Shown here in pieces: positions 41,766-50,766 of a stretch of 64,000 nt of DNA; position 1 is the stretch's first letter; each line of letters starts with the position of its first letter. The stretch spans positions 1 through 64,000 of the forward strand of contig JAFUXT010000023.1 of assembly GCA_017470815.1 (NCBI GenBank). Direction: 5' to 3'. This stretch comes from a bacterium (GTDB lineage: Bacteria > Cyanobacteriota > Vampirovibrionia > Gastranaerophilales > Gastranaerophilaceae). The position numbers and the translations under genes were made by a program. A model generated the notes under the pieces. That model worked only from the letters and a program-made list of their open reading frames with translations, made no database searches and was not told where the DNA came from.

Positions 41766-41911
41766 AGAAAATGTACTCCATAGCGGAGTTGATAACCGAA
41801 TAGATTTACAAATGCCGCAATAGCCAATAGTGGTTCTTGGCGAGCGGAGCAAGACTTAGAACCACATTGTCCCGAACTTGATTCGGGATCCCGTACAAAA
41901 AATACGAATAT

Positions 41912-41984
41912 GCCGCAATAGCTCAGTTGGTAGAGCAAGGGACTGAAAATCCCTGTGTCCTTGGTTCAATTCCGAGTTGCGGCA
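41912..41984 (+). tRNA. tRNA-Phe(GAA)
   Basis: A complete cloverleaf of 73 bases: acceptor GCCGCAA/TTGCGGC, D arm GCTC/GAGC, anticodon loop CTGAAAA with anticodon GAA, and T arm CTTGG/CCGAG with loop TTCAATT. CCA is not encoded. The 3' part from 41940 is duplicated at 50714, marking it as the integration site of the adjacent mobile element, which restores the tRNA intact. Confidence 0.95.
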
Positions 41985-41992
41985 TATTTTTT
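41940..41992. repeat. Attachment site, tRNA side (att core, 53 bp)
   Basis: This runs from the anticodon stem of tRNA-Phe through its 3' end into the following T-run. It is identical over 53 bases to 50714-50766. This is the crossover region of a tyrosine integrase that targets the tRNA 3' half. Confidence 0.93.
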
Positions 41993-42075: not shown

Positions 42076-42108
42076 TTCAAAAATAAAGATTGCATTTTTT
42101 TAAGAAAA

Positions 42109-42168
42109 ACAACGCACACAATCGCCGTTAAGGGGCGTAAAAAAGAAATTACATATAAAGATACCCCT
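42109..42168. repeat. 60-bp direct repeat, left copy
   Basis: Identical to 47449-47508 except for one base. It contains a small GCC/GGC hairpin and AGGGG...CCCCT arms. It encodes an open stretch TTHTIAVKGRKKEITYKDTP with no ATG in this copy. The two copies bracket the 5.3-kb left and tail part of the element. Confidence 0.85.
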
Positions 42169-42721: not shown

Positions 42722-43020
42722 ACAATTTTAACCAATCTTGTTTAAAAATTACAAAATCATTATATATCAAAATTGCTAAACTTGATATTGTTGAAAATTA
42801 TACGGCGTAATTATTGAAAAAACAGGGATATACAAAATTTTACAAATGATTACATTATCAAGTTTAGTTAATAATAAAACCCGTGAAAAAGCAATATTGA
42901 TATAAAATAGAGGGGGAAAAGCCAAATATATTAAAGAATTAAAAGCATTTAAAAATTGTTAAACTACATTTACGCTTAAAGCCCCTATAATCAATGTTTT
43001 TAACCTCAAAAGGTACTGTG

Positions 43021-43079
43021 CGGGGAATAAAAACCGACGGGGGTTGTTGTCCCGCCCGCCGTGTCTTTTTTAGTCCCCG
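43021..43079. other. GC-rich imperfect hairpin
   Basis: CGGGGA (43021-43026) pairs with TCCCCG (43074-43079). Inside, an AAAAA/TTTTT arm and a CGGG/CCCG arm continue an interrupted stem to a loop near 43045-43050. It stands out sharply in an AT-rich setting. It could be a structured RNA or a DNA hairpin used in replication. Confidence 0.5.
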
Positions 43080-43127
43080 ATTTTTTTAGATTCCGAAAAT
43101 GTTTGTTACTTAAATAAACTCAAACAC

Positions 43128-43512
43128 ACAATATAATTGAGTTTTTAACGAGTGTCAAAACTAAAAATGTAACATTTTGACACTAATAATGTTATAAAAA
43201 ATTTCAATTTTTTGAAAAAAATTATAAGCGTGTAAACGCTGATTTTATTACTTTTCGTTCGTGTATAAAATTTCACTAATTAATAAAATTTGTTTGCAAT
43301 TTTTTAAAATTATGACACTAAAAACACTAAAAAATACAATATTATTGAGTTTTAGATAAATTGTACTTTTATATAAAATATTTTTGACACTAAATATTGT
43401 TATATATTTTTAAGCGTATAAACGCCTTTATTATTAGATTTCAACCTTGTTTAAATTCTTCATAAATTACATAATTTTGTTCGGAATACGCTAAAACATA
43501 CAATATTATTGC
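43128..43512. repeat. Degenerate iteron-like repeats
   Basis: Three motifs recur in the same order. Motif A, ACAATATTATTGAGTTTT-like, is at 43128, 43336 and 43500. Motif B, TTTTGACACTAA plus TGTTATA, is at 43175 and 43382, with an inverted AGTGTCAAAA at 43151 and a partial copy at 43312. Motif C, TAAGCGTGTAAACGCT-like and itself palindromic, is at 43225 and 43411. The spacing is about 164-208 bases. Confidence 0.7.
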
Positions 43513-43615
43513 TTCTTATGTGATTTAATAATAAAAAATGTTATTAATTTTTCAAAAATGGCACTAAAAAAATTTTTTAATTTTTTGTTAATTTTTTATT
43601 ACAAGACTTAATCAT

Positions 43616-44437: not shown

Positions 44438-44716
44438 ATGACTAAAATTTTAAAAACGCCGGAAGAAGAACAAAATATGTCAGATTTAAAAGTAATAACA
44501 AATGAAAATCCGACATTAAACGCAAACGAAAAACCCGCTTTAATTCCTTTAAATGCTTGGAATAAACATTTTGAATATCCAAGTGTCGGGGCTTTAAGAC
44601 AATATAACTTCTTAAATACAAACGGGTTCAGAGATAAGGTTATTAGACTTTTAGGTAAAAGGCTTTATATAAATACACAAGCCTTTTTCGAATGGGCAAA
44701 TAGCCAAAAAGCCTAA
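44438..44716 (+). CDS. Excisionase-like DNA-binding protein
   Basis: A 92-residue protein. The C-terminal 55 residues (YPSVGALRQYNFLNTNGFRD, then LLGKRLYINTQAFFEWANSQ) resemble small winged-helix excisionase/AlpA-like proteins of phages. AAAGGAG lies before ATG, and a second ATG is at residue 14. It is the first gene of the tail cassette, so it could couple excision to expression of the tail genes. The assignment is by eye. Confidence 0.65.
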   Translation: MTKILKTPEEEQNMSDLKVITNENPTLNANEKPALIPLNAWNKHFEYPSVGALRQYNFLNTNGFRDKVIRLLGKRLYINTQAFFEWANSQKA

Positions 44717-44761: not shown

Positions 44762-45217
44762 ATGGAAAATCAAGCACAAAAAACAATTATTCAAAAGAAA
44801 ATGGAAAAATCAAGAGCAATCGAAATTTTAAGCGAAATTAAACAAAATATTTGCGGCGTAGATATTGACGAAATTTGCGACGGCGACGAATTAAGCAAAA
44901 ATGCCGAGTTACAAAAAACATATAAGAGGGTAATACAAGCGATTCAATGCGGGTTGGTATATTGGGACGATGTTAATAATTGCCTTGTTCAAAAACTCAT
45001 AAACCCAATTAAGTGCGGCGAATTGGAAGCGACGGAGTTCAAATATAAAAATCGCCCGACAATAGACGAACTTCAAGCGATGAATGTAAACAATGAAATC
45101 GAAGCCTTTGTCGGCATTATGTCAACAATAGTTGCCCGCCCAACACAATTAATCGGACAATTATACGGGCAAGACTTACAAATAGCAACGGGTTGTATGA
45201 GTTTTTTCGTCAATTAA
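44762..45217 (+). CDS. Phage tail assembly chaperone (gpG-like)
   Basis: A 151-residue acidic protein in the position of lambda gpG, two frames before a tape measure gene. Residues 70-150 (GLVYWDDVNNCLVQKLINPI; RPTIDELQAMN; MSTIVARPTQLIGQLYGQDL) fit tail assembly chaperones. AAGGAG precedes the ATG. Close to its end, a T TTT TTC heptamer would let ribosomes slip -1 into the next frame to make a 204-residue extended form, as for gpGT. In lambda these proteins coat the tape measure protein before tail tube assembly. Confidence 0.75.
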   Translation: MENQAQKTIIQKKMEKSRAIEILSEIKQNICGVDIDEICDGDELSKNAELQKTYKRVIQAIQCGLVYWDDVNNCLVQKLINPIKCGELEATEFKYKNRPTIDELQAMNVNNEIEAFVGIMSTIVARPTQLIGQLYGQDLQIATGCMSFFVN

Positions 45218-45375
45218 CGCTTATGGTTGCTACATATTACGCTGAAATTTTAATATTAAATGGTTGGGATAACTTAACAAATATTATAAATACAAGTATA
45301 GAAAATATAATATATTGGGGGCGACGGGCGAAAGAATACGCTAAACAATACAACAAAATGTCAAAAGGAGATTAA
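45193..45375 (+). CDS. Tail chaperone extension (gpT-like), reached by -1 frameshift
   Basis: The open frame is -1 relative to the gpG-like gene and overlaps it by 25 bases. It has no ribosome site of its own before the ATG at 45193. It is therefore probably translated only as an extension after slippage at 45202-45208. It adds 55 residues, starting RQLTLMVATYYAEIL and ending KQYNKMSKGD. It stops three bases before the tape measure ATG. Confidence 0.7.
   Translation: MYEFFRQLTLMVATYYAEILILNGWDNLTNIINTSIENIIYWGRRAKEYAKQYNKMSKGD
45202..45208 (+). promoter_or_regulatory. Programmed -1 frameshift site (T TTT TTC)
   Basis: The heptamer TTTTTTC is in the correct phase (AGT TTT TTC GTC in the zero frame). 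Slippage gives TTT TTT CGT and enters the gpT-like frame, nine bases before the zero-frame stop at 45215-45217. Confidence 0.7.
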
Positions 45376-45378
45376 CAA

Positions 45379-47301
45379 ATGGGATTAAAAAATTTTAGTA
45401 TTTTTACGATTTTTAAAGCGAAAGACGGGGTTACGCCCGTCTTTAAGCATATTATCAAAAACGGGAATACCGCTGGATTAAGTATTTCAAGAAGTATGTC
45501 AAAGGCTCGATTGTCAATTTTGGCTTTAAAATCGGCATGCGTTACAGTTACGGGTGCTATTGCGGCGGTCGGTGCTTTTGCCCCATTAAAAGCCTTTAGT
45601 GATTGGGAAAAAGGAATAACAACAGTTTATACTCTTTTAAATAAAAATGAGATTAACACTTTTGGTAAAACATTAAAAGAATTGTCAAAAGAGGGTATAA
45701 GAGCGGGGCTTGGGATTGAAGATGTAAATAAGGCTTTGTTTGATTCGGTTTCTGCTATGGGTATGTCAGAAAAAACAATAAATGTTTATAAAAAATCTTT
45801 AATACTTGCAAAAGGTGGCGTTGCAGATGTTTCTACGGCTTTGGGCGGTATGATGTCAGTAATAAATGCTTGGGGTGAAAAAACAACAAATGCGACCGAA
45901 GTCGCAAATGCCTTTTTTACGGCACAAAAAAAGGGTGTTACAACAGTTGAAGAGTTGGCTTCAAATATAGGTCAAGTCGCCCCGCTTGCAAAACAAATGG
46001 GGTTGAGCGTTGAAGAAACATTGTCAACGATTGCCGCATTAACAACAGGCGGTCTATCAACGGATATGGCGGCAACGGGTTTAAAAAATACTTTACAAGC
46101 CCTCGCAAACCCGACCGAAAACGCAAGAAAAACGCTTGAAGAGTTTGGAGTTCCTTTTGGAATTGTTGATATTAAAGCGAAAGGGCTTACTTACACTCTG
46201 CAGAAATTAATCGAAATGCAACAAAAATCCCCCAACGCTATAACAAAAGCGATTCCGAACATAAGAGCATTAACAACAGTTCTTTCATTAGACGAGGATA
46301 AAATGCAAAAAGTACATAAAACGCTCGTTGAAATCCAAGAAGATGTTAAAAATGGCACGGGCTTAAATGAAGCCTTTGAAATGATGAACTCTACGGGAGC
46401 CGCAACAATGTCGAAAGTTATGGGAGAATTACAAATTGCTTTAATCGAATTGGGGAAACTTGCCGCCCCTGTTTTACTTCCCGTTGTAAAAGGTTTCGGG
46501 GATTTAGTACATTGGTTGAATGAAATGTTGCCGAAATTAAGTAAGGTCGGAGAGTTTTTAAAAAATCATTCAATATATATTATTAGTATTGTTTCGGGAA
46601 TAAGTGGAATGTTAGCATTAAAAACTTCCGTCAATGCCGTAACAACGGCTTTAAAATGGTATAATACAGTAACAATGATTGCGGGTGCTAACGGAATACA
46701 AGCCGTCACGGGATTGAAAAAATTGTGCTTTGTTTTAGGCGGTTACACATCGGCATTGTGGAAGTCAATTATTGCTATAAAAATGCAAACATTGGCGTTA
46801 TTGGGCAATCCTTGGACTTGGGTTGCGATTGGTATTGGTTTAGTCGTTGCGGGCGTAATTTTATTATACAAAAATTGGGATAAAGTAACAGAAGCCGTTA
46901 AAAATTGGTACAATACGGCAAAAACAAAAGTTCTTTCGTTTTGGGAAAAAACAAAAGAAGTGTTTAGTAATATAGGAAATTACATAAAAACACATTTTAT
47001 AGAATTGTTGTTTTCGGCATTAAACCCTATTGGGGCAATTATAATGGGGCTTAAAAATGTTTTAAAATTGTTCGGGATTATAAAATCAGACGAAAGCATA
47101 TTTAAAAACGGCTTCAAAATGGGCATTGATAATAACAATTATACCGCTCAACCCTATGTAAAATATGATAATATTACAGGCTCAAAAGCCCCAAGCGGGT
47201 TAATAGAAGTAAAAAACATTGTTGAAAACAAAAATAATTCTTCTATAAATTCGTCGGTTAGTCTTATGGGGGCAAACAATTTGCAATTAAAACCAATATA
47301 A
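45379..47301 (+). CDS. Phage tail tape measure protein
   Basis: This sets tail length and is threaded through the tail tube. A conserved core (about 75-310) has the PhageMin_Tail pattern: FSDWEKGITTVYTLL, VSTALGGMMSVINAWG, TTVEELASNIGQVAPLAKQM, LTTGGLSTDMAATGLKNTLQ. Hydrophobic stretches follow at about 410-510, then a C-terminal tail. At 640 residues it is short for a tape measure, so the tail would be short. AAAGGAG precedes the ATG. It ends in a strong terminator, and no further tail gene follows. Confidence 0.9.
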   Translation: MGLKNFSIFTIFKAKDGVTPVFKHIIKNGNTAGLSISRSMSKARLSILALKSACVTVTGAIAAVGAFAPLKAFSDWEKGITTVYTLLNKNEINTFGKTLKELSKEGIRAGLGIEDVNKALFDSVSAMGMSEKTINVYKKSLILAKGGVADVSTALGGMMSVINAWGEKTTNATEVANAFFTAQKKGVTTVEELASNIGQVAPLAKQMGLSVEETLSTIAALTTGGLSTDMAATGLKNTLQALANPTENARKTLEEFGVPFGIVDIKAKGLTYTLQKLIEMQQKSPNAITKAIPNIRALTTVLSLDEDKMQKVHKTLVEIQEDVKNGTGLNEAFEMMNSTGAATMSKVMGELQIALIELGKLAAPVLLPVVKGFGDLVHWLNEMLPKLSKVGEFLKNHSIYIISIVSGISGMLALKTSVNAVTTALKWYNTVTMIAGANGIQAVTGLKKLCFVLGGYTSALWKSIIAIKMQTLALLGNPWTWVAIGIGLVVAGVILLYKNWDKVTEAVKNWYNTAKTKVLSFWEKTKEVFSNIGNYIKTHFIELLFSALNPIGAIIMGLKNVLKLFGIIKSDESIFKNGFKMGIDNNNYTAQPYVKYDNITGSKAPSGLIEVKNIVENKNNSSINSSVSLMGANNLQLKPI

Positions 47302-47431: not shown

Positions 47432-47448
47432 ATAAATTATGAAAAATG

Positions 47449-47508
47449 ACAACGCACACAATCGCCGTTAAGGGGCGTAAAAAAGAAATTACATATTAAG
47501 ATACCCCT
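47449..47508. repeat. 60-bp direct repeat, right copy
   Basis: It matches 42109-42168 with one mismatch. Here an ATG at 47446 precedes the repeat, and the mismatch turns an AAA codon into TAA, so the frame THTIAVKGRKKEITY is closed. It may be the stub of a gene also present at the left copy. Confidence 0.85.
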
Positions 47509-47620: not shown

Positions 47621-47932
47621 TTATTTTGAAAATTCACAAGTTGGTGATGATTCAAAAATATAAAGTTGCCCCTTGCAATTTTTTCTTTTGATTCTTAAAT
47701 ATCCTTTTTCTTCAAGTTCTTTTATTCCGTTGTCTATACTCTCTCTGCCGTCTTTGGCATAACTCATTAATTGTTGTTTACTATTTATGTTTTTGTTTGC
47801 TAATAAAACGGACAAAATGCCCTTTGCCTTTAAACTCAATTCTTTGTCATACAAATAAAATTTTTCATCAAAAATATAACGCCCCATTTTCTTATCCTTT
47901 TTCCATGCCGGAACTTGTTTAAATTGTCGCAT
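47621..47932 (-). CDS. Winged-helix protein, replication-initiator-like
   Basis: A 103-residue basic protein. DKELSLKAKGILSVLLANKN, then SIDNGIKELEEKGYLRIKR, is the helix-turn-helix and wing pattern typical of phage replisome organisers and small plasmid Rep-like proteins. It is short for a full initiator. A GC-rich hairpin lies upstream, between it and the regulator genes. Possible target: the iteron-like region. That link is inference. Confidence 0.6.
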   Translation of the reverse strand: MRQFKQVPAWKKDKKMGRYIFDEKFYLYDKELSLKAKGILSVLLANKNINSKQQLMSYAKDGRESIDNGIKELEEKGYLRIKRKNCKGQLYIFESSPTCEFSK

Positions 47933-48660: not shown

Positions 48661-49209
48661 TTAATTATCGGTATTGAAGCCGATTTTTTTATGCTCTTTT
48701 GGTTGTTCTATTAAGTTATTTAAAGCCGTAACAATAGCGGCGATATGTTTTTGTTGTTCTGAAAATTTATTGTCGCAATTCTCGATATGTAACATTAACA
48801 TTTTGCGTAATTCTTCAATCTCTTTTGTTTTAGATGTTTGGGCGATTGCATATTGCCTTAATTGTATAAATGCCCTTACGACCTTTACATTAATTTCTAT
48901 CGCTTTATCGCTATTAAGTATGCTCGCAAGCATTGTTACGCCGTGTTCGGTAAACACATAGGCGTTTTGATAACTATACTTTAACTTTTCGAGGTGGTCG
49001 CAATTTGCGACCACATATTGTTGTTCTTCGTCCGTAAGTTGAAACATAAAATCCTCGGGGAAGCGTTTTAAATTACGCTTTACGGCTTCGTTTAATCGCT
49101 TTGTTTGAACTCCGTATAATTCCGCCAAATCTCGGTCAATCATTACTTTTTGGTTACGGATTGTAAAAATTCTTTTTGCGATTCCGTTTATTACTTCTAT
49201 GTCGTTCAT
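48661..49209 (-). CDS. ORF6N-domain protein (antirepressor-like)
   Basis: The N-terminal 100 residues are an ORF6N DNA-binding domain: IRNQKVMIDRDLAELYGVQT, then LNEAVKRNLKRFPEDFMFQL and VFTEHGVTMLASIL. The C-terminal half is a coiled coil. Such proteins are common in phages and mobile elements, where some act as antirepressors. The length of 182 is typical. It is placed 16 bases after the integrase gene in one transcript. Confidence 0.9.
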   Translation of the reverse strand: MNDIEVINGIAKRIFTIRNQKVMIDRDLAELYGVQTKRLNEAVKRNLKRFPEDFMFQLTDEEQQYVVANCDHLEKLKYSYQNAYVFTEHGVTMLASILNSDKAIEINVKVVRAFIQLRQYAIAQTSKTKEIEELRKMLMLHIENCDNKFSEQQKHIAAIVTALNNLIEQPKEHKKIGFNTDN

Positions 49210-49225: not shown

Positions 49226-50332
49226 TTAAATTGCGATTGTAAACATATCGTCCGTTGTTGTTTGTAACAATGTTTGAGTATGTTTTTGTGTTAAATGTGA
49301 ATATCTTTTAACCATTTGCATTGTTTTATGACCTAAAATTGAAGCAATATCTATTAATGAAGCCCCATTCATAGCCAAATAACTTGCAGTTGTATGTCTA
49401 ATATCGTGAAATCTAAAATCATTAATATTGGCAAGTTCTAAAACTTTATAAAATCTTACCCGCATATCTATTAATTTTTTGCCGTTATTGGTTGCCCATA
49501 AGTTATTATTGTTTATTTTTCTTATTTTTTGAAATTCTTTTAACTCTCTGCATACTTTTTCCGTCATAGCAACGCCCCTGTGGTCGCCGTTTTTAGTATT
49601 CATAAAATAAATTTGTTTATGTTTAAAGTCGATATTTTCCCATTTTAAATTGTAAATTTCAGAATACCTTGCCCCCGTTGACAACGCTATTAAAACAAAT
49701 AAATATGTTTGTTTATTGTAGTTTTCCGTTCTTATGTCAAAATTATTACAAGCGTTTAATATTCGGTTTATTTCTTCTTTTGACAAATAGCGTTCTTTAT
49801 TAACTTTTTCGGGGTTTTTTCTGATTTTATGCATTGGGTTTTCATCTATCCAATTTAATTCATATATGGCATAACTAAATACGGAAGATAAAATCATTAA
49901 ATATCGGTTTACAGTTGCGGGCGTTCTTGTCTTTCTTCCGTGTTTAGGTTTTAGGCTTGGTTCGGTTTCCAATAATTCTTTACATTCCGCTAATTTCGAC
50001 GGGGAAACATTGGCAAGATAAAAAGCCCCGATTTTATCTTTCCACCATAATAATTGCTTTACATATTTTTCTTGCTCGGATTTCCTTTGCGGGATTTTAT
50101 AATCTATGTATTTGTCGATTAATTCATTAACTGTATGCTTACGGCTTTCGGGGGTTTCTATCCTTTTCCCCCTTTTTATATCGCTTTCAATAGCCTTTGC
50201 CCAATTTTCAGCATCGGTTTTCCTGTCAAAAGTTTTATAAATTGGCTTTGCCCCCTTTATCCTTATCATAACTTGATAACTTACTTTAACTTTGCCATTT
50301 ACTGTGCGTTCATACATTCTTATTGTTGCCAT
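49226..50332 (-). CDS. Tyrosine recombinase / integrase
   Basis: The enzyme that inserts and excises the element at tRNA-Phe. It has an N-terminal arm-binding domain (about 1-55, with TFDRKTDAENWAKAIESDIK), a core-binding domain (about 65-165) and a catalytic domain. The catalytic residues R222 (TGARYSEI), H309 and R312 (HDIRH), H335 (LGHK) and Y344 (VKRYSHL) are all present, so it should be active. It lies about 380 bases from the right attachment core. The upstream XRE-like gene ends two bases before its ATG. Confidence 0.95.
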   Translation of the reverse strand: MATIRMYERTVNGKVKVSYQVMIRIKGAKPIYKTFDRKTDAENWAKAIESDIKRGKRIETPESRKHTVNELIDKYIDYKIPQRKSEQEKYVKQLLWWKDKIGAFYLANVSPSKLAECKELLETEPSLKPKHGRKTRTPATVNRYLMILSSVFSYAIYELNWIDENPMHKIRKNPEKVNKERYLSKEEINRILNACNNFDIRTENYNKQTYLFVLIALSTGARYSEIYNLKWENIDFKHKQIYFMNTKNGDHRGVAMTEKVCRELKEFQKIRKINNNNLWATNNGKKLIDMRVRFYKVLELANINDFRFHDIRHTTASYLAMNGASLIDIASILGHKTMQMVKRYSHLTQKHTQTLLQTTTDDMFTIAI

Positions 50333-50713: not shown

Positions 50714-50766
50714 GGACTGAAAATCCCTGTGTCCTTGGTTCAATTCCGAGTTGCGGCATATTTTTT
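50714..50766. repeat. Attachment site, distal copy (att core, 53 bp)
   Basis: Identical to 41940-41992. It contains only the tRNA-Phe 3' half, so it is not a functional tRNA gene. It marks the far boundary of the element. Confidence 0.93.

Follow-up and report, generated by a model that had tools for sequence, protein, structure and literature searches.

A predicted lambda G/GT-type −1 ribosomal frameshift in tail chaperone genes of Candidatus Gastranaerophilales phages and of a small integrative element

A putative tail assembly chaperone open reading frame (ORF), carried on a small integrative element of a gut-type, uncultured member of Candidatus Gastranaerophilales, ends in an in-phase slippery heptamer that is kept in every homologous locus examined. 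Judging from sequence, we consider, with a probability of about 0.93, that the site programs a −1 ribosomal frameshift like that of lambda G/GT. Below, "the window" is the whole stretch of DNA that was analyzed (64,000 nucleotides), G is the chaperone ORF, T is its −1 extension, and TMP is the tape measure protein. In the mechanism that we propose, the majority of ribosomes would terminate at position 45217 and yield the short chaperone G, while a minority would slip on the heptamer, with pairing shifted from TTT-TTC to TTT-TTT, and produce GT. By analogy with lambda, many copies of G and few of GT would coat the tape measure protein, whose gene follows, and T would bring in tail-tube subunits. 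The frameshift would extend a well-known theme to an uncultured order, in its phages as well as in its mobile elements; the interesting part is the reduced, satellite-like setting, the function of which we infer.

The heptamer TTTTTTC is read in G as the codons TTT (45203 to 45205) and TTC (45206 to 45208), which gives the phase T_TTT_TTC. These codon positions agree with the exact X XXY YYZ phase claimed in the first-pass annotation of this DNA, and recomputing the predicted G-T fusion after a −1 slip returned the 204 residues claimed there. The −1 frame entered at the heptamer ends with a stop codon at 45373 to 45375, just upstream of the tape measure gene at 45379. Since this frame is already open from ~45097, 118 nt upstream of the G stop, the 25-base overlap originally described holds as the distance from the first TTG and not as the overlap of the two frames. 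The slip arrangement at the end of G is confirmed: an in-phase X_XXY_YYZ heptamer within the last 12 codons, with the −1 frame staying open for 40 or more codons after it, is found in this chaperone ORF alone among the window's 68 ORFs of 100 codons or more. Across ORFs of at least 140 aa in related loci, in-phase T_TTT_TTC occurred 20 times in 75,488 codons, and 9 of these 20 occurrences were the chaperone slip site itself, as counted in chaperone ORFs long enough to be included.

Homologues of G were gathered from whole genomes (family, order, and phylum), GTDB contigs, and IMG/VR; their hosts were Candidatus Gastranaerophilales/Melainabacteria. IMG/VR returned no relatives when searched with a single chaperone sequence and 14 when searched with a chaperone alignment, and a tblastn search of the INPHARED phage collection with the chaperone found none. 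The 34 loci examined were ~25 to 97% identical, came mostly from full contractile-tail phages, and included 30 that were distinct around the slip site. An in-phase TTTTTTC lies 9 or 12 nt upstream of the G stop in 34 of 34 loci, and a T frame of 52 to 57 codons is present in 33; the one exception, L022, keeps the heptamer and has lost the T frame. Loci with both frames and no heptamer, named at the outset as the finding that would count against a frameshift, were sought among the 34, and none was seen. That all of these relatives retain the slip site marks it as genuine and as an instance of a type already described.

Conservation of the heptamer was also apparent at the codon level in a set of 22 genes <80% identical to one another. 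The Phe-Phe pair is encoded by TTT TTC in all 22; elsewhere in these genes, Phe is encoded 78 times by TTT and 16 times by TTC (16/94). The residue preceding the pair is D, S, N, R, or G, yet the third base of its codon is T in 22/22 genes, and codons beside the slip site vary at synonymous sites. Given this signature, amino acid constraint alone does not explain the conservation seen in the comparison. We therefore consider it extremely improbable that the heptamer arose by accident in AT-rich DNA, with Phe-Phe kept for the protein and T started at TTG 45193 or internally. T6 runs are common in this AT-rich host, a start codon is mechanically available for T in the window, and the unrelated chaperone of locus L130 contains an in-phase TTTTTTC not shared by its relatives, an example of a heptamer arising by chance; an accident is nevertheless hard to reconcile with conservation in 34 of 34 loci and a codon signature that is independent of amino acids. 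Nor does T have a conserved start codon across the 34 loci. Good Shine-Dalgarno sequences precede both G (AAGGAG) and the tape measure gene (AAGGAGAT), and none was found for T at TTG 45193, which upholds the earlier statement that the downstream frame lacks a ribosome site of its own.

A −1 product could in principle also come from slippage of RNA polymerase on the six T's, and this homopolymer does lie at the same place in all homologues. Slippage of that kind needs no codon phase and would favor longer runs, whereas the observed run is always exactly T6C in the X_XXY_YYZ phase; a run of six T's is short for efficient polymerase slippage, and we regard this route as very improbable. With respect to stimulators of the preferred ribosomal slip, no conserved RNA structure was found 3′ of the site (mean folding z score of −0.7, versus −0.1 in control stretches), and no upstream Shine-Dalgarno stimulator was obvious.

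The T frame evolves as a protein under purifying selection. In pairs with computable dS, dN/dS was 0.05 to 0.22 when T was read in the −1 frame, well below 1, and distinctly higher in the other two frames; all values are pairwise Nei-Gojobori estimates over ~50 codons and are rough. The same holds within the reduced element: comparison of the window copy with L081, a third and more diverged copy on a short contig, gave dN/dS of ~0.12 (G), ~0.16 (T), and ~0.08 (TMP fragment). A −1 extension under protein-level selection is thus indicated both by the T frame in 33/34 loci and by dN/dS. The first-pass annotation had proposed that retention of the slip in so reduced an element suggests selection on the cassette. 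Purifying selection between the window element and L081 favors that proposal, but L022, with a heptamer and no T, means that the whole device is not universally retained among reduced elements.

By position, coding strategy, and modeled fold, G/T is a predicted lambda-G/GT-like pair. The gene 3′ of G/T matches phage-related minor tail protein/tape measure families. In full phages the gene order is capsid protease, major capsid protein, sheath, tube, G/T, TMP, hub, and baseplate, with the tube gene named from its position; G/T thus has tube and tape measure neighbors there and a tape measure neighbor only in the element. The AlphaFold model of G was confident (pLDDT in Table 1), and Foldseek matched it to viral models in BFVD, among them one named "Tape measure chaperone" (E value of 1.6e-3 and probability of 1.00) and others named "Tail assembly chaperone" (probability of 0.99 and E value of 0.14). 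These BFVD matches point to a tail-chaperone fold; a PDB fold search with the model gave no match at an E value of ≤0.001, and a PDB sequence search with the chaperone gave nothing significant.

Frameshifting of tail chaperones is widely conserved in long-tailed phages (PMC5009743), in agreement with the earlier remark that lambda G/GT and many other phages conserve such a slip before the tape measure gene. Like lambda, the present system has a short chaperone ORF, a −1 slip near its 3′ end, and a short T extension directly 5′ of the tape measure gene. It differs from lambda in its heptamer (T_TTT_TTC here and G_GGA_AAG in lambda), in that the sequence match of G is to an unnamed PHROG only (phrog_4648, function unassigned), and in its carriers, which are contractile-tail phages and small elements of Candidatus Gastranaerophilales. 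The tape measure protein, at 640 aa, falls inside the 595- to 688-aa range of related full phages, so tail length would not change greatly.

The element that carries the cassette is 8.8 kb long, and an exact repeat of the 3′ part of a tRNA-Phe gene marks both of its ends (Table 1). Besides the integrase and the ORF6N anti-repressor, it holds small regulators; recognizable capsid, tube, sheath, hub, and baseplate genes were sought in it, and none was found. The locus L016, in another genus, carries a copy that is 98.4% identical, with the same ends and also in tRNA-Phe, which indicates that the element is mobile and intact as a unit. The 92-aa protein used here as a family marker had no match in Pfam or PHROG; it may be an excisionase/AlpA-like regulator.

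Table 1. Predicted features of the tail cassette and of the element that carries it (window coordinates)
Feature	Coordinates	Strand	Basis
attL core	41940..41992	+	53-bp exact repeat; overlaps 3′ part of tRNA-Phe (41911-41985)
Putative small regulator, 92 aa, family marker	44438..44716	+	Homologues in 52/383 genomes of the order
G-type tail assembly chaperone ORF, 151 aa	44762..45217	+	phrog_4648 1.5e-9; synteny; predicted fold, pLDDT 84
Slippery heptamer T_TTT_TTC	45202..45208	+	In phase; 34/34 homologous loci; codon-level conservation
T domain, −1 frame after predicted slip, 55 codons + stop	45208..45375	+	dN/dS ~0.16 vs L081; open from ~45097
Tape measure protein, 640 aa	45379..47301	+	PF10145 9e-27; phrog_991 1e-47
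Replication-initiator-like winged-helix protein	47621..47932	−	phrog_428 2e-11; PF13730 weak
ORF6N anti-repressor	48661..49209	−	PF10543 5e-32
Tyrosine integrase	49226..50332	−	PF00589 1.6e-30
attR core	50714..50766	+	53-bp exact repeat

Small integrative elements form a family in Candidatus Gastranaerophilales, and the window element is one of its members. L022 is a related element at tRNA-Met that has integrase and regulators in common with the window element; its cargo comprises an intact G and tape measure, a Dda-like helicase, and the heptamer, with T lost. Beyond the window element, L016, L081, and L022, we fetched 49 marker-bearing loci. A tape measure was detected in two of these (L130, where it is split, and L135, where it stands without a recognized frameshift chaperone), and both are of types that differ from that of the window; best matches of the tape measures of the family are phrog_991, phrog_1535, and phrog_2276. 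Annotated marker loci carry replication genes, such as those for DnaB-type helicases, and searches of the marker loci for homologues of the tested sheath, capsid, and baseplate types found none. This combination is the layout of a phage satellite: an integrative element with defined borders, an integrase, and att sites, and an incomplete virion gene set in the element and its relatives, as far as the homologue types tested.

By analogy with the PLE satellites of Vibrio, the setting is likely that of a phage satellite building chimeric tails. PLEs encode a tail assembly chaperone (TAC) and a tape measure, the latter of which has been shown to become part of chimeric tails (PMC12987554). The two systems are alike in that a satellite-type element carries a tail chaperone and a tape measure and lacks the rest of the tail. 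They differ in host and in their unrelated proteins, and in that no baseplate hub gene was seen in the 8.8-kb element; a frameshift is not mentioned in PMC12987554, and one is predicted here. Since the element has no detectable tube, sheath, baseplate, or capsid genes, its chaperone and TMP probably work on tail components supplied by a contractile-tailed helper phage. Small size, location at a tRNA gene, integrase, regulators, replication genes (in relatives), and the lack of a full virion module also recall PICI-type satellites. Unlike those, the element has an unusual tail cassette, packaging-redirection genes were not identified in it, and it is known here from sequence. No satellite or prophage study of this uncultured order was found in the literature searched.

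We give an even chance to a more specific proposal, in which the family would be a new satellite lineage, convergent with Vibrio PLEs, some members of which would bring their own chaperone (G and, by frameshift, GT) and tape measure and thereby seed chimeric tails made of the tube, sheath, and baseplate proteins of a helper. Members would have acquired different tape measure types, and two lack T and would perhaps use the GT of the helper. A rather unlikely alternative is that the slip is ancestral and real, with the cassette a remnant of a decaying full prophage and not a working satellite part. The absence of other phage structural genes from the element would fit decay, as would the loss of T in L022, the split tape measure gene of L130, and the failure to find a sheath gene anywhere in genomes G000, G274, and G070, which carry small cassettes. 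Decay accords poorly, however, with the intact state of G, T, and TMP and the purifying selection on each of them seen when the window element is compared with L081, with the nearly identical copy that has the same att ends in another genus, and with the intact G and TMP of L022. A helper prophage was also sought in the genome of the window by tape measure and sheath; only a weak tape measure match (C51; E value of 4e-4) and no sheath were found. If small elements keep a complete, selected chaperone/GT/TMP cassette without the rest of the tail, satellite tail hijacking would reach beyond Vibrio. In that case, a comparison of sister elements that have kept T with those that have lost it would offer a natural test of which form of chaperone a satellite must bring.

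Several further observations were made on these loci. tRNA-Phe is a recurrent integration site of the element family across genera (window, L119, L120, L121, L128, and L135) and lies close to infC in the window, L119, L120, and L121. A functional link between the slip and integration in tRNA-Phe(GAA), which decodes the slip, was not supported, since the same heptamer occurs in full phages and in the tRNA-Met element. A 72-nt direct repeat, 92% identical (42097 to 42168 and 47437 to 47508), flanks the tail cassette and three minus-strand ORFs of the element; it is also present in L016 and may mark a site of cassette insertion or recombination. Within the element, the region from 43000 to 43600 is an AT-rich noncoding stretch of ~0.6 kb with three diverged 34-nt repeats (at 43113, 43321, and 43485), possibly iterons or an origin. 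In L130 (11703 to 13549), the tape measure lies in two frames, through decay or assembly error, and the chaperone lacks the extension of its relatives; this chaperone was rejected as a second slip case because those relatives have no TTTTTTC and its −1 frame closes after 8 codons. Finally, L165 and L167 to L169 represent a second, unrelated chaperone family of the order, seemingly with its own −1 overlap: the 0-frame ends in ..VQ, the −1 frame reads [KR]AAR[GS]Y.., and the slip site is one other than TTTTTTC.
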